Positions 8,483-38,218 of a stretch of 64,000 nt of DNA are shown in pieces. Positions within the stretch are counted from its first letter, which is position 1; each line of letters opens with the position of its first letter. Where the stretch lies: assembly GCA_034521575.1 (NCBI GenBank), contig JAXHMJ010000005.1, forward strand, positions 682,001 to 746,000. The letters are read 5' to 3'. Below the pieces are notes generated by a model. That model was given only the letters and a program-made list of their open reading frames with translations. It ran no database searches and was not told the DNA's origin. Origin of the DNA: a candidate division KSB1 bacterium (GTDB lineage Bacteria; Zhuqueibacterota; Zhuqueibacteria; Residuimicrobiales; Krinioviventaceae). The position numbers and the translations under genes are program-made.

Positions 8483-10185
8483 ATGAATATTGATGTCGAA
8501 CAATTAACCGTCCGGGCCCTTTTGCAACGCAGTTTTGAGGAATACGCTGATTTTCCCGCTTTGAGCATAGTGGGTGAAAAACCGTTCACCTATATGCAGG
8601 TCCGTGAGCGCGCTGTTGAAACCGCTATGAGGCTGTTAAACCGCGGCGTTAAAAAGGAGAAAAAGTTATTATTTTGGGAGAAAACAGTCCAAACTGGGTG
8701 ATTGCCTACTGTGCTGTCGAATACATCGGCGCTGTGGCGGTCCCCATACTGACCGGATTCCCGGAATCGGATATCCGCCACATTATACGTCATTCCGAAT
8801 CTGTCGCTGCCTTTGTCGCTGAAAAACACATGGACAGTGTTGAAGAAATCGATAAATCCAGTCTGCACACAATTTACACGTTGGAAGATTTTACAGAAAA
8901 GAAATTAAAGCAAAACACCGCCAAAGAACTTGAAAAGCATATCCAGTCATTTTTAAAGCAAAAAGGCAGAAAACCCAAAGACGAAGATCTGTTGGAACAC
9001 TATAAACCGGAAGAGGACGAATTAGCGGCCATTATTTATACCTCGGGAACCACAGGACACTCCAAAGGTGTCATGCTGACTCATAAAAACATTGCATCTG
9101 ATGTTGTAAATTCCATCAAGCAATTCCCTATTGATCATCAGGACCGCTTTTTATCCATTTTACCGTTATCCCATACCTTTGAATGCACAGGCGGTATGAT
9201 GTGTCCTCTGTCCGCGGGTTCCAGCATCGCTTACATGAGCGGACTCCCCACTCCGCAAAAGCTTTTATCCGCGATGGCTACCGTACAACCCACCGCTGTT
9301 CTGACTGTGCCGCTGGTGATGGACAAAATTTACCGCAAACGCATTTTACCGCAAATCCAGGAAAAAGCGGTAATCGGAACATTATACAAACTGCCGTTTT
9401 TCCGTAAAAAGCTCAACAAAGTTGCCGGCAAAAAACTGCACGAAACGTTTGGCGGCAAACTGCGCTTTTTCATGTTTGGCGGCGCAGCGCTCAACGTTGA
9501 TGTGGAAACGTTTCTCCGCGATGCCGGCATCAGCTATTCCACCGGTTACGGCATGACCGAGACCTCTCCCATTTTGACCATCAACCCGTTTGGCAAGGTC
9601 AAAGTGGGATCATGCGGTCAGACAATCCCCGGCATCGAGATCAAGATTCACGAGCCCAATCCGGAAACCGGCGTCGGAGAAATTATCATCAATGGTCCGA
9701 TTGTCATGCAGGGGTATTACAAAAATGAAAAGGAAACGGAACGTACGTTTCTCGACAAGGAGTGGCTGCGCACCGGCGATCTGGGATATTTCGATCCGGA
9801 AGGATATCTGTTTATCAAGGGAAGATCAAAGAATGTGATTGTGGGGCCGTCCGGCGAGAATATATATCCTGAAATCATCGAACAGGAGCTCATGCAAAGT
9901 CCGTTTATTCAGGAAGTCGTCGTCTACCAGTCCAAGGGACGTCTGCTGGCTCTGGCCTATCCGGATTACGATATGATCGATCAAGAGATTGACGGTAAAA
10001 AGGAATCAGAAGAAACAGAGTCGCGTATCGAAGATATTCTGGACGAGGAACGCAAAAAAACAAACGAACGTCTTCCACATTTTGCCGCGGTGAGTAAAAT
10101 CTTTGAACAGCGGGAACCGTTTGAAAAAACCCCGACGAATAAAGTCAAACGGTATCTGTATATTCCCAAGAACGATGTGGAGTAA
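8483..10185 (+). CDS. Long-chain acyl-CoA synthetase / AMP-binding ligase (one frameshift)
   Basis: Adenylate-forming enzyme that activates fatty acids to acyl-CoA. The ATG at 8483 follows AGAGGA. The first frame (to 8701) ends with RLLNRGVKK, and the family sequence continues in the next frame (VIILGENSPNWV). Adding one G at about 8656 restores a protein of 567 residues, the usual length. Later landmarks are the AMP-binding loop YTSGTTGHSKGVMLTH, STGYGMTETSP, RTGDLGYFDPEGYLFIKGR and a C-terminal TPTNKVKRYL with the conserved lysine. The single indel may be a sequencing error. The gene stands alone on the plus strand with its own promoter. Confidence 0.9.
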
Positions 10186-10203
10186 TTACACAGTATGGGT
10201 TCG

Positions 10204-10234
10204 GTTCGCTGCCCGTCTCGATCGGGCAGCGAAC
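10204..10234. repeat. GC-rich hairpin related to the array repeat
   Basis: A perfect 12-bp inverted repeat, GTTCGCTGCCCG with CGGGCAGCGAAC, and a 7-base loop, 18 bases past the stop of the acyl-CoA synthetase gene. The GTTCG...CGAAC ends and the GCTGC/GCAGC core resemble the array hairpin (GTTCGTTGCT/AGCAACGAAC). No T-run follows, so it is not a standard terminator. Confidence 0.5.
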
Positions 10235-10270
10235 AATACGAAATTGGTCAAACAAAAAAGATATATTTAC

Positions 10271-10318
10271 CGGTTCGTCGGATTTGGTTTGTTCGTTGCT
10301 GAAAATCAGGAGCAACGG
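10271..10318. repeat. Single repeat copy separated from the main array
   Basis: It carries CGGTTCGTCGG, then the core GTTCGTTGCT, the GAAAATCAGG loop and AGCAACGGAC. This is one array unit lying on the far side of the GxxExxY gene, so that gene is flanked by repeats on both sides. Confidence 0.75.
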
Positions 10319-10323
10319 ACAAA

Positions 10324-10738
10324 TCATTCTATTTGCTCTGATGCTTCTGCAGCATTCTCAATAAAGTTGGGTACTCTTTCAATATCAAATCCGGTTGCAC
10401 GATTTGGAAAATTGATCAAAACGCCCAATTCATATCCTGTTGCTTTAAGATAGTTCAAAAGCTGAGCTTTATGAAACTGTGCAATATGTTCTGCACATTT
10501 CAGTTCTATGATGATCTGGTCATTAACAACCATATCTGCACAATACTCACCAATTGTTTCACCTTTGTATTGGACCTCAATCGGTTTTTGTGTTTCTACT
10601 TTTGAATCCCCTGTTGATCAATTCAATGCTCAAAGCCCGTTCATAAATTTTTTCCAGAAAACCATTGCCTAATATTTTACGGATTTCGATACAGGCCTTT
10701 TTAATTTTGTAGAATGCTTCTTTTTGAATTAATCGCAT
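10324..10738 (-). CDS. GxxExxY protein (PD-(D/E)XK nuclease-like), one frameshift
   Basis: Small protein of about 137 residues of the GxxExxY family, which is placed in the PD-(D/E)XK nuclease superfamily; the biological role is not known. The N-terminal half contains the name-giving motif (GNGFLEKIYERAL). The C-terminal half contains ADMVVNDQIIIELKCAEHI, the acidic/E-x-K core expected for this fold, then LLNYLKATGYELGVLINF. The two halves are in different frames. Removing one base of the TTTT run at 10600-10603 fuses them. It is probably functional if that is a homopolymer error. It sits between one repeat copy and the large array, and shares the array's minus-strand direction with the radical SAM gene. 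Confidence 0.8.
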
Positions 10739-10789
10739 GTTTCCTCCCTAATTTACAAGTGATTTTATAATTTTCAGTATAATTATCCC

Positions 10790-13290
10790 CGGTTCGGTTG
10801 TTCGTTGCTAAAAATCAGGAGCAACGAACGACTCGAACGACACAAACTATGAAAAATACACCTGCCAGTTCGTCTCATTCGTTTTGTTCGTTGCTGAAAA
10901 TCAAGAGCAACGAACGACGCGAACTATGAAAAAACACACCTGCCAGTTCGGATAGTTCGTTTTGTTCGTTGCTGAAAATCAAAAGCAACGAACGACGCGA
11001 ACTATGAAAAACACACCTGCCAGTTCGGATAGTTCGGTTTGTTCGTTGCTGAAAACCAAGAGCAACAAACGACTCGAACGACACGAACTTAAAAAAATAC
11101 ACCTGCCAGTTCGGATAGTTCGTTTTGTTCGTTGCTGAAAATCAAGAGCAACAAACGACTCGAACGACACAAACTTAAAAAAACACACCTGCCAGTTCGG
11201 ATAGTTCGGTTTGTTCGTTGCTGAAAACCAAAAGCAACGAACGACTCGAACGACGCGAACTATGAAAAACACACCTGCCAGTTCATCTCATTTGTTTTGT
11301 TCGTTGCTGAAAATCAAGAGCAACGAACGACTCGAACGACTCGAACTTAAAAAAATACACCTGCCAGTTCGGATAGTTCGGTTTGTTCGTTGCTGAAAAC
11401 CAAAAGCAACGAACGACTCGAACTTAAAAACACACCTGCCAGTTCATCTCATTCGGTTGTTCGTTGCTGAAAACCAAAAGCAACGAACGACGCGAACTAT
11501 GAAAAAACACACCTGCCAGTTCGGATTGTTCGTTTTGTTCGTTGCTGAAAATCAAAAGCAACGAACGACGCGAACGATGAAAAACACACCTGCCAGTTCG
11601 GATAGTTCGGTTTGTTCGTTGCTGAAAACCAAGAGCAACAAACGACTCGAACTTAAAAACACACCTGCCAGTTCACTCATTCGGTTGTTCGTTGCTGAAA
11701 ACCAAAAGCAACGAACGACTCGAACGACGCGAACTTAAAAAATACACCTGCCAGTTCGGATAGTTCGGTTTGTTCGTTGCTGAAAACCAAGAGCAACAAA
11801 CGACTCGAACGACTCGAACTATGAAAAACACACCTGCCAGTTCGGATAGTTCGTTTTGTTCGTTGCTGAAAATCAAAAGCAACGAACGACGCGAACGATG
11901 AAAAACACACCTGCCAGTTCGGATAGTTCGGTTTGTTCGTTGCTGAAAACCAAGAGCAACAAACGACTCGAACGACTCGAACTATGAAAAACACACCTGC
12001 CAATTCGGATAGTTCGTTTTGTTCGTTGCTGAAAACCAAGAGCAACAAACGACGCGAACGACTCGAACTATGAAAAACACACCTGCCAATTCGGATAGTT
12101 CGTTTTGTTCGTTGCTGAAAACCAAGAGCAACAAACGACGCGAACGACTCGAACTATGAAAAACACACCTGCCAATTCGGATAGTTCGTTTTGTTCGTTG
12201 CTGAAAACCAAGAGCAACAAACGATTCGAACTTAAAAAAACACACCTGCCAGTTCATCTCATTCGGGTTGTTCGTTGCTGAAAACCAAAAGCAACGAACG
12301 ACTCGAACTATGAAAAATACATCTGCCAGTTCATCTCATTCGGTTTGTTCGTTGCTGAAAATCAGGAGCAACAAACGACTTGAACTATGAAAAATACATC
12401 TGCCAGTTTGTCATTCGGTTTGTTCGTTGCTGAAAATCAGGAGCAACAAACGACTTGAACGACACGAACTTAAAAAAATACACCTGCCAGTTCATCTCAT
12501 TCGGTTGTTCGTTGCTGAAAATCAAGAGCAACGAACGACTCGAACGACACGAACTTAAAAAAATACACCTGCCAGTTCGGATAGTTCGTTTTGTTCGTTG
12601 CTGAAAATCAAGAGCAACAAACGACTCGAACGACTCGAACTATGAAAAAACACACCTGCCAGTTCGTCTCATTCGGTTGTTCGTTGCTGAAAATCAAGAG
12701 CAACAAACGACTCGAACTATGAAAAACACACCTGCCAGTTCGGATAGTTCGTTTTGTTCGTTGCTGAAAATCAAAAGCAACGAACGACTCGAACTATGAA
12801 AAATACATCTGCCAGTTCGGATAGTTCGTTTTGTTCGTTGCTGAAAACCAAGAGCAACAAACGACTCGAACGACACGAACTTAAAAAATACACCTGCCAG
12901 TTCGGATAGTTCGTTTTGTTCGTTGCTGAAAATCAAGAGCAACAAACGACTCGAACGACTCGAACTATGAAAAACACACCTGCCAGTTCGTCTCATTCGG
13001 TTGTTCGTTGCTGAAAACCAAAAGCAACGAACGACTCGAACGACTCGAACTTAAAAAAATACACTTGCCAGTTCGGATAGTTCGTTTTGTTCGTTGCTGA
13101 AAATCAAGAGCAACGAACGACTCGAACGACACGAACCTAAAAAAACACACCTGCCAGTTCGGATAGTTCGTTTTGTTCATTGCTGAAAATCAAAAGCAAC
13201 GAACGACACAAACTTAAAAAAACACACCTGCCAGTTCGGATAGTTCGTTTTGTTCGTTGCTGAAAACCAAGAGCAACAAACGACTCGAAC
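10790..13290. repeat. Array of about 31 long-hairpin repeats
   Basis: Head-to-tail units of about 72-88 bases. Each unit has CACCTGCCAGTTCG, TTCG blocks spaced nine bases apart, the stem GTTCGTTGCT, a loop of about nine bases (GAAAATCAA or GAAAACCAA), the opposite stem AGCAACGAAC, CGAAC blocks spaced nine bases apart, and an A-rich linker. Cores begin near 10801, 10886, 10965, 11041, 11128 and so on to 13250. The two arms can pair over about 29 positions with periodic internal mismatches. Unit length changes mainly by whole nine-base blocks. Many copies have AGCAACAAAC, and one has GTTCATTGCT. Both changes keep pairing through G-U only in RNA copied in the minus direction. The reading frames found across the array are by-products of the repeat. 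Confidence 0.95.
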
Positions 13291-13323
13291 GAGAAAAACA
13301 TATACCCATTGTGCGTGAAACTT

Positions 13324-14601
13324 TCAGACCTTTCCGCAGCAATTCTTGAATTTTTTACCGCTGCCGCAGGGACAGGGTTCATTGCGGCCGGCGGTGTACT
13401 GGGCAGCTGCCGGAGGTGAGACGGGTTCCGGTTGCGGCGCCGGGTGTTCATTCAGGCGCTGTTCATACTGCTGCTGCCGCCACTGCGCAGCCAGCCGGCG
13501 TAAATCCTGATCCGCGTGTTCGAAAAAGCGTTTATAAGCTTCGCAGAAATGATTCGAGCCGCGGTCGCGCGGATCACCCTGACGGTCCTTGGGACAGCCG
13601 CCGCGACAATGCATCAGCCAGGGACAATCCACACATTCCGGCGGCAGCTGCGCTTTAATGGCGCCGAACTCATTTTGACGCGGAGAATTGAGCAGATCGA
13701 TCAATTTATCTTCCAGCACATTGCCGAGCCGCCACTGCGGATCAACAAAGAAATCACAGGAATACACATCGCCATTGTGCTCCACCACCACATAAATGCC
13801 GCATTCCTTGAGCAGCGTGCATTCCGGCGGCTGCATGCCCACATAAGTATGAAACACGGAATCAAAAAACCGCACCGAAGTGGTGGGCTGACCGGCGCGG
13901 AAATCGGATTTCCACAGGTCATACAATTTGATGAAAAAGTCGCCCAGGCGCTCGGCATCCACTGAATACGGCGCCGAACGCGCCGGATCCGTGGGATGCG
14001 GTTCGACAATGGGAATGAACTGCATGAAATTGATATTGTGCGCTTTGTGATAATGGTAAATCTCTTCCACATAATCGACGGAATAATTATTGACCACCAC
14101 CAGAGCATTGACCTCCACGCCTTCATGCAGCATCACATCCCGGGCGCGACTCACACGCTCCCAGCTGCCTTTGCCGCCGGGGAATTTCCGGTATTTGTCA
14201 TGAATGTGCTGTGGACCGTCCAGGGACAGTCCGACCAGAAAATGCGCATCGCGCAGAAACTGCGCCCAGCTTTTGTCAATGAGCACACCGTTGGTTTGCA
14301 GGCCGTTGCCCACCACTTGACCGTCACGTCCAAACCGCACCTGATATTCAACCGCGCGTTCGTAAAACTCGCGCCCCATCAGCGTGGGCTCGCCGCCCTG
14401 CCAGCCGAACGACACCTGCTGTCCGCCCTGCCACATCACCTGTTTGATCATGTGACGCTGGATGCGGTCACTCATGCGATGTACCGGCTGTTCTTTGAAC
14501 AATTCAGCTTTTTTCAGATAAAAACAATAGTCGCAACCCAGATTACAGTCCGGGCCCGCGGGTTTGATGAGGATTGATGAGAGTGGTTTTTGCTGCGGCA
14601 T
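13324..14601 (-). CDS. Radical SAM/SPASM enzyme, anaerobic sulfatase maturase type, with C-terminal SEC-C motif
   Basis: Iron-sulfur enzyme of 425 residues. The radical SAM cluster motif is CNLGCDYCFYLKK near residue 19. FGWQGGEPTLMG and LQTNGVLID follow as in sulfatase maturases, which oxidise a Cys or Ser of a sulfatase to formylglycine. The SPASM part supplies further cysteines (CTLLKECGIYVV, CDFF, ECVDCPWLMHCRGGCPKD). The C-terminus adds a proline-rich linker and a zinc-type SEC-C motif (RNEPCPCGSGKKFKNCCG). No sulfatase gene is present in the window, so the substrate is either encoded elsewhere or different. Transcription from this gene would run into the repeat array. Confidence 0.88.
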   Translation of the reverse strand: MPQQKPLSSILIKPAGPDCNLGCDYCFYLKKAELFKEQPVHRMSDRIQRHMIKQVMWQGGQQVSFGWQGGEPTLMGREFYERAVEYQVRFGRDGQVVGNGLQTNGVLIDKSWAQFLRDAHFLVGLSLDGPQHIHDKYRKFPGGKGSWERVSRARDVMLHEGVEVNALVVVNNYSVDYVEEIYHYHKAHNINFMQFIPIVEPHPTDPARSAPYSVDAERLGDFFIKLYDLWKSDFRAGQPTTSVRFFDSVFHTYVGMQPPECTLLKECGIYVVVEHNGDVYSCDFFVDPQWRLGNVLEDKLIDLLNSPRQNEFGAIKAQLPPECVDCPWLMHCRGGCPKDRQGDPRDRGSNHFCEAYKRFFEHADQDLRRLAAQWRQQQYEQRLNEHPAPQPEPVSPPAAAQYTAGRNEPCPCGSGKKFKNCCGKV

Positions 14602-14639
14602 GAGATGTCTTTCGGTTCTTATTCATACGTGTTTCAAAA

Positions 14640-14867
14640 TTATGCTATTTTTTCTTTTAATAAACTTTTATCTACATCCAAAGTATAAGACAATATCGTA
14701 TTAATATCCATCTTTTTAGAGGCGTTTAATATTTCAATCCCAATCAATTTTCCTTCAGATGTCGTATCAATATTTATTCCTTCCCGGATTTCAATAACAC
14801 CATCCGCATTTTGATTTCCGAGTTCCAAATAAAGAGCATCAACTTTTTCGTCATAATGTATTTTCAT
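14640..14867 (-). CDS. DUF2283 domain protein
   Basis: A 75-residue protein with the DUF2283 pattern: MKIHYDEKVDALYLELG at the start, then GINIDTTSEGKLIGIEILNASKK. Function is unknown. In many genomes this family lies beside a DUF4258 gene, as here, with a four-base overlap (ATGA). The pair resembles a toxin-antitoxin module, but activity has not been inferred from sequence. Confidence 0.85.
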   Translation of the reverse strand: MKIHYDEKVDALYLELGNQNADGVIEIREGINIDTTSEGKLIGIEILNASKKMDINTILSYTLDVDKSLLKEKIA

Positions 14868-15091
14868 TGCTGAATTCCTTTCTTTAAAGGATAAACTGTG
14901 ATAATAGTAGCATCATCCTTTTCTACTGACAAGACTATTTTAATTGGATATTCAAATCCAGCCAGTTCTTTTATAACTATATTTTCACCTTCTGTCAATT
15001 TTAAATCACTTAATAATAACTCTATTTTTGATTGGTGTATTTTGTAAAGTTTTGCTCTCCTCTTTGCATGTCGAGAAAAATGTATTCTCAA
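14864..15091 (-). CDS. DUF4258-type small protein, possible toxin
   Basis: A 75-residue basic protein starting MRIHFSRHAKRRAKLYKI and ending TIITVYPLKKG. The N-terminal 'H-A-x-x-R' segment and the final beta strand match the DUF4258/RelE-like style of small toxins. Its stop overlaps the start of the DUF2283 gene. A VapB-like (DUF2281) gene ends 58 bases upstream on the same strand, so three small genes may form one operon. Which one would neutralise it is unclear. Confidence 0.7.
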   Translation of the reverse strand: MRIHFSRHAKRRAKLYKIHQSKIELLLSDLKLTEGENIVIKELAGFEYPIKIVLSVEKDDATIITVYPLKKGIQQ

Positions 15092-15149
15092 ATTTGAATA
15101 TCCTTTTCATTAAAAAATTACATAATTTTTTTACTTTCACGAAATAACA

Positions 15150-15374
15150 CTATTCATGGGGATAATCAGTTTTGTAATCTGCAAATTCTTCATCCAAATG
15201 GGACATAGAAGCCGTATACAATTCTTTTAACGCAATCTCTAGTGATTCACCCTTATTTTCAAAAGCATGTTTCAACTTTAAGAAATGAATAAAGTCAAGT
15301 ACCTCGTTTAAAATATCAGGTGATAAATCATCGGCTTCTTTTACAACAAGTTCTTTTATATTTTGTTTTTGCAT
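15150..15374 (-). CDS. DUF2281-type antitoxin-like protein
   Basis: About 74 residues. The ATG at 15374 follows GGAG and is preferred over an upstream in-frame start. The sequence KELVVKEADDLSPDILNEVLDFIHFLK is the typical DUF2281 helix (a family of VapB-like antitoxins). The rest is acidic (HLDEEFADYKTDYPHE), as expected for the toxin-binding tail. No PIN-domain toxin follows directly; the next genes are DUF4258 and DUF2283 proteins. Confidence 0.75.
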   Translation of the reverse strand: MQKQNIKELVVKEADDLSPDILNEVLDFIHFLKLKHAFENKGESLEIALKELYTASMSHLDEEFADYKTDYPHE

Positions 15375-15536
15375 TTCTGTACTCCAACTATTCAATGTAT
15401 CTGATCTTTTTCCTAAACAACAATATAGAAAAAAACACAGTAAACTGCAAAATTATTAAAATCAGAGTGGCGGTTTACAAGGGATACTATTCATACCGGC
15501 AAAAGGGCGGACGTGTTCCGATGACTATTTAAAACA

Positions 15537-15707
15537 TTAGTTCACGAAAAAAACGAGATCATCCGAAAAACGATGATCAAAATAATGACGGCTCAGTGCA
15601 GTACCACCGGTTAGATAGAACGGCGTTTCTGCAGCGTTGACGCGTTTCAGCGCTCCATCCTGAAAAGGATACAGGCTCTCCCTGTAATATTTTTCGTATG
15701 ATTTCAT
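15537..15707 (-). pseudogene. Truncated AbiEii/AbiGii-type nucleotidyltransferase toxin
   Basis: Only 56 residues remain of a protein usually longer than 200. The segment TPFYLTGGTALSRHYFDHRF, then SDDLVFF, is the family's N-terminal nucleotidyltransferase motif. The second catalytic Asp of the usual DLDFF is Val here, and a TAA follows four codons later with no family sequence beyond it. The start overlaps the previous gene by four bases, an arrangement kept from a working operon. Confidence 0.75.
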
Positions 15708-15970
15708 AATTTTCGTTGATGCGCAAACCGCATCTTTTTGATCAGGTCCGGTGTCAGGTTTTTTTTCAAAAATGTTTTCCCAAACAAATCCAGGATATCA
15801 TAAAAAGGCAATTGTTGTAAAATACGCAATAATGCACGCTCCTGATTCAGCATTCCAACAGCAGAATGTTCACCCAGAGCGATGTTGTAAAAGACGACAG
15901 GATCAATGTCATAATCCCAAAGTATGGGCTGTATTGTTTCTTGAATGTATTTTGTATTGATACCGGTCAT
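15704..15970 (-). CDS. Partner protein of the AbiEii-type toxin (hypothetical)
   Basis: About 88 residues (MTGINTKYIQ at the start; LNLTPDLIKKMRF-like end, actually KKNLTPDLIKKMRFAHQRKL). I do not recognise a named domain. Its position directly before, and overlapping, an AbiEii-type reading frame is common for small antitoxin or helper proteins of these systems. With the toxin truncated, it is probably an orphan. Confidence 0.55.
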   Translation of the reverse strand: MTGINTKYIQETIQPILWDYDIDPVVFYNIALGEHSAVGMLNQERALLRILQQLPFYDILDLFGKTFLKKNLTPDLIKKMRFAHQRKL

Positions 15971-16053
15971 GAAAAACACAGTATAGCGTTTATGTATTTG
16001 TAAGAATAAATTCCTGCGATCATTTTACAGCAATCATTAAGACACAATGTGTC

Positions 16054-17213
16054 TCATACACATTCTGTCTTGTTTTTGCGCAATAGTTTGCGTTTGATCC
16101 AGTACAGAAACAGAGGGTCGGTTACTGTATACTGCTTGTTCCTTTTTTCAATGATACCATTCTTCTCAAATCGTTTAATGGCACGTGCCACATTGACATG
16201 CTTTGTATTAATTTTACTATATATTTTTTCGCGATTTTCGGCCAATGCCACGAGCACAGCAACATTCTCCCGACTTTTGCTCAGTTCCTGCCAAAGGGTC
16301 TCAATGTAATTGATTTCAACCCACATAGCAGATTCAATATAATCCGCAATCTGCGATGCCTTTACAGTCCTCTCTGTCGCATGTTCCAGTTCAATTTGCT
16401 GACAGATCAATTGCGTGTAATACGGATGACCTCCGGTAAAGTCAAGGATGGTATCCAGACTTGCCTGCTCTACATTGATCTGAAGGCTTTTAAAAACATG
16501 ACTCAAATAGGTTTTAAAAGCTGATTTTTCAATACACCCCAACTTTATAATTCGGGCAAACCGATAAAAGGGGGCATGAGAAGAAATAAACAAATCATTC
16601 ATAACCGATTCATAGCTGCCGGAAAAAATATAGGTTGCCTGTTGTTGTTGAATTTTCGCGCGAAAAAGCTTTATAATTTCAGTCCCATCCAATTTTTGCA
16701 AATCGCCAAATTCGTCGAAAATGCAGACCATATCATGTTGATGGCGGACGGCAAAGTCATTTATAAAATCGACACTGGCGGATAATAGTTTATCAGGATC
16801 CTTGTGACGATCCGCAAATGAAAGAATATAGTCAAACTCTTCAATGGTCTGTTTGAATTCAATATGTCTGAGCAATTCGCTGATATTATCCTTGAATTTG
16901 TTAAACAGTGAATCCAGTTTTTATTTTGCAAAACAGATTCAGTGATTTTTTCGGCCAATAGTTCCTTATTAGGCGTTGAGAAAAAATCAATGTATCCGGA
17001 ATAGACTTTTGTATCATCGAATCGTCTCAAAACCTCCAATAATACTGATGTTTTTCCAAAACGCCGCGGCGCCACCAGCACCACACTCTGCCCTCTGCTC
17101 GTGAGATGCATTATTTGTTGAACGATCTGTTTCCGTCCGACGAGCTGGTTCCCCGTCACCGGTTTGCCGGCTAAAAATCCTTGTAAAGTATTTGATTGTT
17201 TAGAGTGTGTCAT
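16054..17213 (-). CDS. AAA-type ATPase (archaeal-ATPase-like), one frameshift
   Basis: A P-loop ATPase of about 386 residues. Walker A is VAPRRFGKTSVLLE near residue 48 and Walker B is MVCIFDEFGDLQ. These are followed by a SGSYESVM sensor region and a C-terminal winged-helix segment (HVNVARAIKRFEKNGIIEKRNKQYTVTDPLFLYWIKR), the standard layout of this family, which is often found in mobile or defence contexts. The frame changes at the TTTTT run 16918-16922. A one-base change joins ...SVLQNK to LDSLFNKFKDNI. Function is unknown. Confidence 0.85.
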
Positions 17214-17596
17214 GGTAAAATTTAAAAATTGTTATTTTGATCGCAGTCTTGGTTATTCACCAAACGCAGAGGCCGGCAGAGACAACAAAGGCCGTTGAGC
17301 CGGAAACGAGGCATAACAGTTTCATCTATATATGGCTCAGCATGCTCTGGTGTTTTCAAACCAAAAGTAAAAGTTCGATTCAAATAAAAATGCTGGGCAC
17401 GTATTACAATATAAAACAATTAACTTTAACTGCAAAATGAAAAGGGAGTTGGGGGCCGATGGAAGGAGAAAAAGACCGGCAAAGGAATGAAAAAATGATT
17501 AAAGGTAACAAAAATGTGGCGAGGACGAAAGCAAAACAAAGTTGAGCTCGTTATTCAAAGGAAACCACCTGAAATCCGCGTTTAAAACCTGCTATT
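17214..17596. other. Intergenic stretch without recognised feature
   Basis: About 380 bases between two minus-strand genes. I see no coding remnant, repeat or clear terminator. The right part is purine-rich on the plus strand. Confidence 0.5.
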
Positions 17597-17875
17597 TTAT
17601 TTGAAAAACGCAAACAAAATCCCCAACAACGCCCCGACCTGACCGATCCAGAAAATAAACATCCATTTGATAAGGTCGGCGCGGGTGTGCTCAATTTTTG
17701 AGTCCAGGCGTTTTTCTACATCGGCAATTGTCACATTAACTTTGCCGATCTCTTCGGTCATCCGCTCATTGACTTTGGATAGTTCGGTGGTAATACGATT
17801 ATCCAGACGTTGTTCTGTCTGTGCAATCGCCAGTTTCAGATTACCAGTTTCTTGAGTGATGCGTTCATTGATCAT
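17597..17875 (-). CDS. Coiled-coil protein with C-terminal membrane helix
   Basis: A 92-residue protein. Residues 1-68 form regular heptads (RITQETGNLKLAIAQTEQRL, then repeated VNERMTEEI and VEKRLDSKI), and residues 70-91 form one membrane helix (WMFIFWIGQVGALLGILFAF). This resembles DUF1640/CCDC90-like small proteins, without a known function. It begins three bases after the stop of the Wzi-like gene, so it is co-transcribed with the polysaccharide locus. Confidence 0.75.
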   Translation of the reverse strand: MINERITQETGNLKLAIAQTEQRLDNRITTELSKVNERMTEEIGKVNVTIADVEKRLDSKIEHTRADLIKWMFIFWIGQVGALLGILFAFFK

Positions 17876-17878
17876 TGC

Positions 17879-19426
17879 TTATTGTTCATTGTCAAACCCA
17901 AACACCACCTCCCCGTCCCACCACAATCCAAGCCGCCAGGTGGTGTGCGTTTCGTTCTCGCCTTTTACTTTTTGATAGTTGTCATACATATTGTAGTACC
18001 ATTCAGCGTTGACGCCCCAGTGGATAGACGGCTGATAACGGGCAGAAAGACCGATGCTGTTCCGCGTTTCAACAACACCGGTGGGAAAGGGTTCCGAGTA
18101 GCCTTGTTCTGCGGTGTAATCGATCCACGGGGTATCAAACGGCGTGTAAATCGATCCTTCACCACGGCGGGTGTGACTGTAGTGCAGCTTACATTGCAAA
18201 TCCGCAGAAAACCACTGCTCGGCCTCGATCTGCAGCAAATCAAAGTCATTGCCCAGCGGATGCCCCAGGGGTTTGTTGCGGTGCAGGAAGACTTCGTGAA
18301 AGCTCAATGTTTTATAGGTTCTATTGGTGACACGTGTATATTCTCCAGACAATGTAAGACCGGAAAAAGCAAACGGATCAGACCATTTCACACCGGTGAT
18401 CAATCCGATCTCATTGGGTTCTAAATCACCAGGTCTGGTTTTCTCAATTTGAATATCATCAATCAGCAGTGACGCGTAGACATGAAAAGAGTTGTGCGGA
18501 TAATAAAGAAAATCCACAGCGGGAAGTACATTACCGGCGCCCGCTTCATTCTTTTGTGCTCCGTGATAAAAAAGCACCGGATTCAAATAAACGCTGTTAA
18601 AAGACTGATTTTCTCCACCATAAACCATGATCTCTGACACGGCAACCCTGAACCTGTTTTCAAACAAAGACAATCCCAATCGATGACCGGATAAATATCG
18701 ACGTGCTGTAAACCGACTGGAATCTCTGGCCAATCCATTCATGGGATCAAGCTCGGATATGACAAACATATAGTCAAAAGGTCCGAATCGGGCGCGGGCG
18801 CGCAATTGATCAAGCGGTCTGGCATGATTGGATAATACCAGAGAGCCCGTCTCTCCAGGTCCCCAGCGCAGAAAATCCCTGCCGATTAATACATCAAATC
18901 GATCCCAATTCACACGCACATACGCCTGCTCGGTGTACCCGGCAATGCCCCGCCATTTATCGCCTTTATAGAGAGGATCATGATAATCATATTGATCGAA
19001 ATTGACGCCGCTGTAAGCAAAGACATGCTCTCCAATCTGCGCTCCGGCACCGGCACGGTATATCCCCCTGTAAGCGGCATTGTTCTCAGGCTCATCATCC
19101 AAATTCGCTTCCAACCGCGCTCGACCTGTAATATGGGCACCGGTAGCTTCAGACATAAATTCATATTGGAGTTTTTCATAGATATGGGTAACAAAGGCGG
19201 AATTCAAAGCCTTTATTTTCTCTTCCTCGCCCGATAGTTCCCGGGCAACCTCACCGCGCGTGTACGGCAGTTGCAAGGGATTCAGTTCTAATAAAAATCC
19301 TCTGTCCTGCAGGACTTTTATATCATCATAGGCCCAGTGAAACGTCGGGAGTGTTTCGTGCACAGCTGCTTGTGAAGAGACAACAACCAGAAACAGACAG
19401 AAAAAGCAAATTTGACTGATTTTCAT
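17879..19426 (-). CDS. Wzi-like capsule assembly outer-membrane protein
   Basis: About 515 residues with an N-terminal signal peptide (MKISQICFFCLFLVVVSSQA). The body alternates short beta strands with aromatic ends (GRARLEANLDDEP, YTEQAYVRVNWDRFDVLIGRDFLRWGPGETGSLVLS). The 'GRDFLRWGPG' segment is typical of the Wzi-type capsule assembly family, which binds exported polysaccharide at the outer membrane. It lies directly downstream of the initiating sugar phosphotransferase. Confidence 0.85.
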   Translation of the reverse strand: MKISQICFFCLFLVVVSSQAAVHETLPTFHWAYDDIKVLQDRGFLLELNPLQLPYTRGEVARELSGEEEKIKALNSAFVTHIYEKLQYEFMSEATGAHITGRARLEANLDDEPENNAAYRGIYRAGAGAQIGEHVFAYSGVNFDQYDYHDPLYKGDKWRGIAGYTEQAYVRVNWDRFDVLIGRDFLRWGPGETGSLVLSNHARPLDQLRARARFGPFDYMFVISELDPMNGLARDSSRFTARRYLSGHRLGLSLFENRFRVAVSEIMVYGGENQSFNSVYLNPVLFYHGAQKNEAGAGNVLPAVDFLYYPHNSFHVYASLLIDDIQIEKTRPGDLEPNEIGLITGVKWSDPFAFSGLTLSGEYTRVTNRTYKTLSFHEVFLHRNKPLGHPLGNDFDLLQIEAEQWFSADLQCKLHYSHTRRGEGSIYTPFDTPWIDYTAEQGYSEPFPTGVVETRNSIGLSARYQPSIHWGVNAEWYYNMYDNYQKVKGENETHTTWRLGLWWDGEVVFGFDNEQ

Positions 19427-37992: not shown

Positions 37993-38218
37993 TCCACACA
38001 AAGAGGCAAAAATCGCAAAGAAAAACAAGAGTTAATCCATATTATGCTTTCAAATAGCTGAGAATACTTGTTGGCCTAAATTTTACCATTTTATTGTTAA
38101 GCGTTTGTTTTACCATGTGCACTTGTTTCTTTATTTTTTCCTCTGCGACCTCTCGCGGCTCTGCGTGCAATATTTCGATAATCAATTCACGCAAAGAAGC
38201 AAAAATCGCAAAGAAAAA
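37993..38218. repeat. Dispersed CGCAAAG-type repeats, two direct copies and one inverted-looking arm
   Basis: Two near-identical copies of about 32 bases (37993-38025 and 38187-38218; both contain GCAAAAATCGCAAAGAAAAA) flank a stretch with the complementary-type phrase CTCTGCGACCTCTCGCGG at 38140-38158. Similar 'cgcaaag' words are common in intergenic DNA of many Gram-negative genomes. The copies seem to interrupt the DUF4258-like gene here. Confidence 0.65.

Follow-up and report, generated by a model that had tools for sequence, protein, structure and literature searches.

The window analysed here is a stretch of 64,000 nucleotides from a candidate division KSB1 genome. The locus under study lies between an acyl-CoA-synthetase-like gene on the plus strand, which ends at 10185, and a radical-SAM/SPASM-like gene on the minus strand (14601-13324), both named by reading of their translations. 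Between the two we found a fragmented gene of the GxxExxY family (TIGR04256, PD-(D/E)XK nuclease-like) and an array of hairpins. The gene occupies positions 10324..10738 of the minus strand, with its ATG at 10738 and its stop codon at 10324-10326. To its left lies a half-degenerate hairpin unit on the plus strand (10271..10331; covariance-model match G000:C5:692270-692335, E 6e-11), which matched our hairpin regular expression at 10292-10319 and reaches the stop codon with its 3' arm AGCAACGGACAA (10311-10322). On the other side we read from the sequence a right arm CGGTTCGGTTGTTCGTTGCT (10790..10809, plus strand), of which the outer 12 nt pair with the left arm at 11 of 12 positions. The arms touching the gene (10311-10322 and 10796-10809) show the same polarity as the common form of the family described below, though they are decayed. 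A first-pass annotation had reported a repeat unit just past the stop codon and an array starting about 50 bp before the gene. Both hold: the half-degenerate unit ends ∼5 bp from the stop codon and the array begins ∼50 bp upstream of the ATG.

The same annotation had called a single GxxExxY gene. Position and identity were correct, as the longer piece scored 88.4 bits for TIGR04256 compared to a cut-off of 35, but the gene is not one open frame. We detected a one-base frameshift within an A-run near 10600, which splits the 415-bp gene into two out-of-frame pieces, so that family residues 3-44 and 38-114 fall in different frames; both pieces exceed the cut-off. The copy is thus either a pseudogene or the product of an assembly error and, if it is not misassembled, the frameshift means that it is dead.

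The tandem array (10782..13292, plus strand) contains 31 gene-less hairpins with a period of ∼86 bp (77 or 86). TRF reported a period of 86 with 28.1 copies and 84% matches for 10989-13292, and the regular expression placed the 31 hairpins from 10801 to 13280, in addition to the one left of the gene. The arms consist of three 9-nt words, GCAACGAAC GACTCGAAC GACACGAAC. The units are alike throughout the array and differ mostly by gain or loss of a 9-nt word and by small changes. An Rfam scan of 9000-14000 gave two sub-threshold hits only and no rRNA, and we rejected a known structured RNA on these grounds. TIGR-type guide arrays carry variable spacers between constant repeats; the window units have no variable spacers, which speaks against a guide array of either CRISPR or TIGR type.

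For the family-wide comparison we collected GxxExxY loci by protein family alone, blind to their flanks. For the bracketing score we aligned the 300-bp left flank locally with the reverse-complemented right flank and took the best match; loci with a score of at least 16 were counted as bracketed, a value that no shuffle reached in the phylum set. A GxxExxY gene was present in 72 of the 82 genomes of the phylum (E<=1e-20). The 32 phylum loci had a median score of 20.2, compared to 10.0 when the right flanks of other loci were used and 9.0 after shuffling. The gene was bracketed in 23 of these 32 loci and in none of 29 controls, for which we took PIN-domain genes that are similar in size and come from the same genome set. 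These numbers apply after dropping flanks shorter than 120 bp, which retained 32/32 GxxExxY, 29/30 PIN and 26/30 four-helix-bundle loci. For named genomes from many phyla (80 loci, of which 79 were scorable and L218 was dropped) an inverted repeat brackets the gene in 58 of 79 cases, compared to 2 of 1131 control windows elsewhere in the same loci. L088 and L162 come from one genome, but both score under 16 and add nothing to the positives. Strong arms were absent from 21/79 named and 9/32 phylum loci. Given these contrasts we rejected a chance association; the excess of inverted repeats that the first-pass annotation proposed to look for is there, and gene and repeats belong together across the family. 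Its expectation of GTTCG-like blocks mostly failed, as the family flanks mostly contain other words and each locus has its own 9-nt word.

The arms are ∼27 nt long and consist of three 9-nt words such as CACGAAGNN. When we determined the arm period the best lag was 9 in 48/58 named and 13/23 phylum bracketed loci. The common form of the unit is ACCACGAAGnnCACGAAGnnCACGAAG-ATG...stop-CTTCGTGnnCTTCGTGnnCTTCGTGGT, and the window units, set in that register, begin with their own three words and thus follow the same three-word design. By reading, the family arms begin with ACCAC, ACCGC, ACCAT or GCCAC and the window arms with AGCAAC. Many loci have a single hairpin of which the gene is the loop, with the arms abutting ATG and stop. 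In L163, L166, L168, L170, L174 and L192 the 5' arm closes with an innermost word that has GAAGA or GAAGG as its end, right before the ATG, so the 5' arm may double as a ribosome-binding site. We then considered how far DNA similarity extends in the 418 locus pairs that could be aligned over the ORF. It reached more than 60 bp beyond the ORF in just 19 pairs. Most commonly it ended 25-44 bp out (left 150 + 35 pairs, right 120 + 151 pairs), and for many of the more divergent pairs it ended at the ORF itself; on the left side the end fell within the ORF edge (−20 to 14) in 174 pairs. As similarity between unrelated sites usually stops at or inside the arms, the unit measures ∼435 bp.

The arm word and the protein vary together. 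For this comparison we used 111 rows, of which 65 were scorable, meaning that the word occurs at least twice in both arms. In 63 of the 65 loci left and right arm agree in their 7-letter core, with seven cores overall, whereas permutation gave a mean of 26.5 concordant loci and a maximum of 39 in 5000 rounds. With the commonest core set aside, 24 of 26 loci were still concordant. We placed the cores on a protein tree of 61 of the 65 rows (four with stops were dropped) and counted 11 changes, close to the minimum of 8; shuffled cores required 24 on average and none of 200 shuffles was as low. Host phylum, with 14 classes and five rows without a named phylum dropped, required 30 changes (shuffled mean 40), a rough count because the labels come from NCBI names, in which the 'Deltaproteobacteria' MAGs mostly resolved as Myxococcota. 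The word therefore tracks the protein tree much more closely than host phylum does. For example, the CATGAAG clade comprises five rows from Thermodesulfobacteriota, Lentisphaerota, Verrucomicrobiota and Pseudomonadota. The protein is short and support in its tree is mostly weak (4/58 branches starred), so we place weight on the contrast of 11 to 30 changes and none on single branches. A word that follows the protein phylogeny fits a protein acting on these repeats. The earlier suggestion that the gene acts on the repeats gains from this for the family, but not for the window copy, which is frameshifted and cannot do so now.

The GxxExxY family (TIGR04256 / PF13366) is named after a motif. In 44 sequences we found 15 invariant columns, among them E27, D67, E77 and K79 of the PD-(D/E)XK core, so that the D ... 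E-x-K residues of this superfamily are in place. The AlphaFold2 model (pLDDT 94) has a restriction-endonuclease-like fold. Its nearest solved folds, all with moderate scores, are the LHK and lambda exonucleases, Cas4 SSO0001 (Z 9.6, rmsd 5.2, 101 aligned) and the archaeal Hjc Holliday-junction resolvases. Foldseek matches to nucleases were weak (best E 1.1e-3), and a sequence search of the PDB returned no relative at E<=0.1. Residues and model support a predicted nuclease with an inferred substrate.

In the genome of the window three GxxExxY genes are intact and two more persist as remnants, namely the window copy and a fragment at C5:499433. A separate tandem array, with units of ∼105 bp (C2:361187-362978), flanks the gene at C2:362284 (L003) on both sides. 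Its repeat family also forms a gene-less array of four units ∼8 kb away and has ∼14 dispersed matches, and it is unrelated in sequence to the repeat of the window array. The remnant at C5:499433, which lies on another contig than L003, corresponds to the L003 gene and its upstream flank with a deletion. A solitary gene-less hairpin of the L003 repeat family also lies in the window itself (38134-38209, minus strand). The covariance model of the window hairpin detected further copies at C5:479-489 kb among small genes and others singly elsewhere. Outside the array we counted relatives in at least ∼22 places, with both strands merged by hand; 150 of 3141 candidates were scored, so the hairpin numbers for this genome are lower bounds. 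In L035 (G000:C5:470001-490000) about ten solitary GTTCG hairpins lie between small genes at 8500-19300. Several of these genes are of toxin-antitoxin type (VapC-like, YefM/YoeB-like and MntA/HepT-like), and an intact IS200/IS605 transposase gene lies within the cluster at 11058-11498. The spaced hairpins were also considered as integron attC sites, but judged by eye the attC core does not fit.

The solitary gene-less hairpins (L035 and L358-L369) show a polarity opposite to that of the gene-bearing form, and they do so in two unrelated repeat families. Their 5' arms are Y-rich, so the apex of a solitary hairpin carries the tips of the element. In this arrangement a right end abuts a left end, which a circle or a head-to-tail tandem would produce. 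We therefore rejected simple internal deletion of the gene-bearing form as the origin of the solitary copies in this genome. The deletion reading does fit L036 compared to L003 and, by eye, the flanks of L001.

We sought the flank pieces of five loci in sister species. G076 carries a GxxExxY gene and two further gene-less hairpins at a site where G077 is ∼530 bp shorter between the same flanks. At a second site G069 is without what G068 carries; this element is atypical, with the hairpin beside the gene and not around it. Presence and absence at the two sites mean gain or loss and do not give the direction, so either could be a loss. We found no target-site duplication in the two filled/empty alignments, which are too diverged at the junctions to reveal one. 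Other elements are common to sister species at the same place, which marks many of them as old residents. Paralogues within one genome are diverged and we saw no recent within-genome bursts of full copies; together with the lack of directly seen movement this points to activity that is low or old. Two degenerate patterns found no relative in viral contigs, and relatives occurred in 8 of 72,556 plasmid records, so we also rejected a phage- or plasmid-borne gene.

Two further gene families are bracketed in a similar manner. S23 four-helix-bundle genes (TIGR02436) of the same phylum lie within inverted repeats in 16/26 loci (L243:9641-10012 and L102-L131), and in 14 of these 16 the best lag was 7, which corresponds to a 7-nt word. 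DUF559 endonuclease-like genes (L243:13342-13713 and L310-L339; 27 of 30 loci scored) are bracketed in 16/27 loci by CCCCCTT...AAGGGGG palindromes, e.g. TCCCCCTTTGAAGGGGGA, and the lag test on the scored loci gave no single clear period for their arms. GxxExxY, S23 and DUF559 genes each come with their own repeat type, and hence family and repeat grammar match in three cases.

On balance we lean slightly towards the explanation that the GxxExxY gene is the single ORF of a compact mobile element of ∼435 bp that reads its own terminal words. The ORF occupies the loop between two imperfectly matched inverted arms of ∼27 nt, each with three copies of the word. The protein would bind the arms at its own word and may nick or cut the folded ends, as hairpin or cruciform. 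Moves of such an element would be rare inside a genome and frequent from species to species, and repair and slippage at the hairpins could give rise to gene-less copies and tandem arrays. In the window the gene would have died by frameshift while its arms were amplified into the array of 31 hairpins and the ∼22 dispersed relatives.

An alternative that we consider improbable is that the hairpins are independent and are spread by, for example, an IS200/REP-type transposase, with GxxExxY genes inserting into or homing to them. Gene-less hairpins outnumber genes in the genome of the window, the transposase gene at L035:11058-11498 is intact and lies inside the dispersed cluster, and REP palindromes are known targets of IS elements (PMC1525189). 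A target model predicts a word that follows the host, however, while the observed word follows the protein, and the many loci with one hairpin only, in which the gene forms the loop and the arms touch ATG and stop, speak against independent hairpins. REPIN/RAYT systems resemble the GxxExxY units insofar as a single-copy gene is accompanied by palindromic repeats that are also found alone (PMC3116915, PMC2817692). The REPs are GTAG- or CGTC-tagged and RAYT is a Y1 (HUH) transposase (PMC3733652). In contrast, GxxExxY proteins are predicted nucleases of another fold with a repeat word that differs by clade. The only NCBIfam match of the window gene at E<=0.001 is TIGR04256, and by reading neither the family arms nor the window arms carry a GTAG or CGTC foot. 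MITEs and other small mobile repeats are likewise short gene-less inverted-repeat units, both dispersed and in tandem, but here the presumed parent gene is enclosed by the arms themselves, and gene and word correspond clade by clade. It is equally improbable, in our estimate, that the arms serve as operators, or as a hairpin in the mRNA, for autoregulation (or RNase III processing) of an ordinary gene that is shared horizontally. Right before the ATG, the inner word (GAAGA, GAAGGA) takes the position of a ribosome-binding site, and any binding would be expected to make arm word and protein co-evolve. Autoregulation needs neither symmetrical arms nor arm-confined similarity, gene-less copies or tandem arrays.

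Less probable still is an RNA-borne element like the S23 intervening sequence (IVS), with an RNA stem, removal by RNase III and spread via host reverse transcription. The anatomy of the Coxiella 23S rRNA IVS is nearly identical: in the description drawn from parts of PMC4990558 it measures 428 nt, has a terminal stem of 28 bp and encloses one ORF, and IVS are patchy and horizontally spread, as are the GxxExxY units. The family shares the terminal repeat of ∼28 bp with one ORF in ∼430 nt, which the decayed window copy does not, and the S23-family genes of the phylum are bracketed too. In contrast, IVS encode S23 within rRNA helices, whereas the GxxExxY units lie between protein genes, as in the window, and encode a protein with a DNA-nuclease-like PD-(D/E)XK fold. 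The 9-nt words have no counterpart in those parts of the IVS description (PMC4990558). The open-access literature, which leaves most subscription journals outside, returned neither a role nor a repeat association for GxxExxY genes, and within this limited search the association appears undescribed; its anatomy alone resembles the IVS. To our knowledge the combination of fold and repeat grammar matches no described element.

A broader version of the mobile-element explanation, which we regard as possible but somewhat short of an even chance, would unite the three families in one general class: a small ORF (GxxExxY, S23 or DUF559) within family-specific word repeats, whose protein reads the word and whose arms co-evolve with it. 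Arrays would be a by-product, the rRNA IVS a special case, and the elements either selfish or domesticated. If true, widespread small-protein families whose names mostly refer to a motif or a domain number would gain a role, and the hairpin repeats of many bacterial genomes would be explained as the termini of a single kind of element. The clade-specific word predicts that each GxxExxY clade binds or cuts its own word, which would amount to a series of nucleases with matched targets and to DNA movement using none of the usual transposase folds.

A minor observation concerns L243 (G068:C3:207000-221500). Here two GxxExxY genes, one four-helix-bundle gene and one DUF559 gene break up a run of genes of pyrimidine-degradation type, the latter named by reading of their translations. 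Each of the inserted genes has an inverted repeat of its own type.
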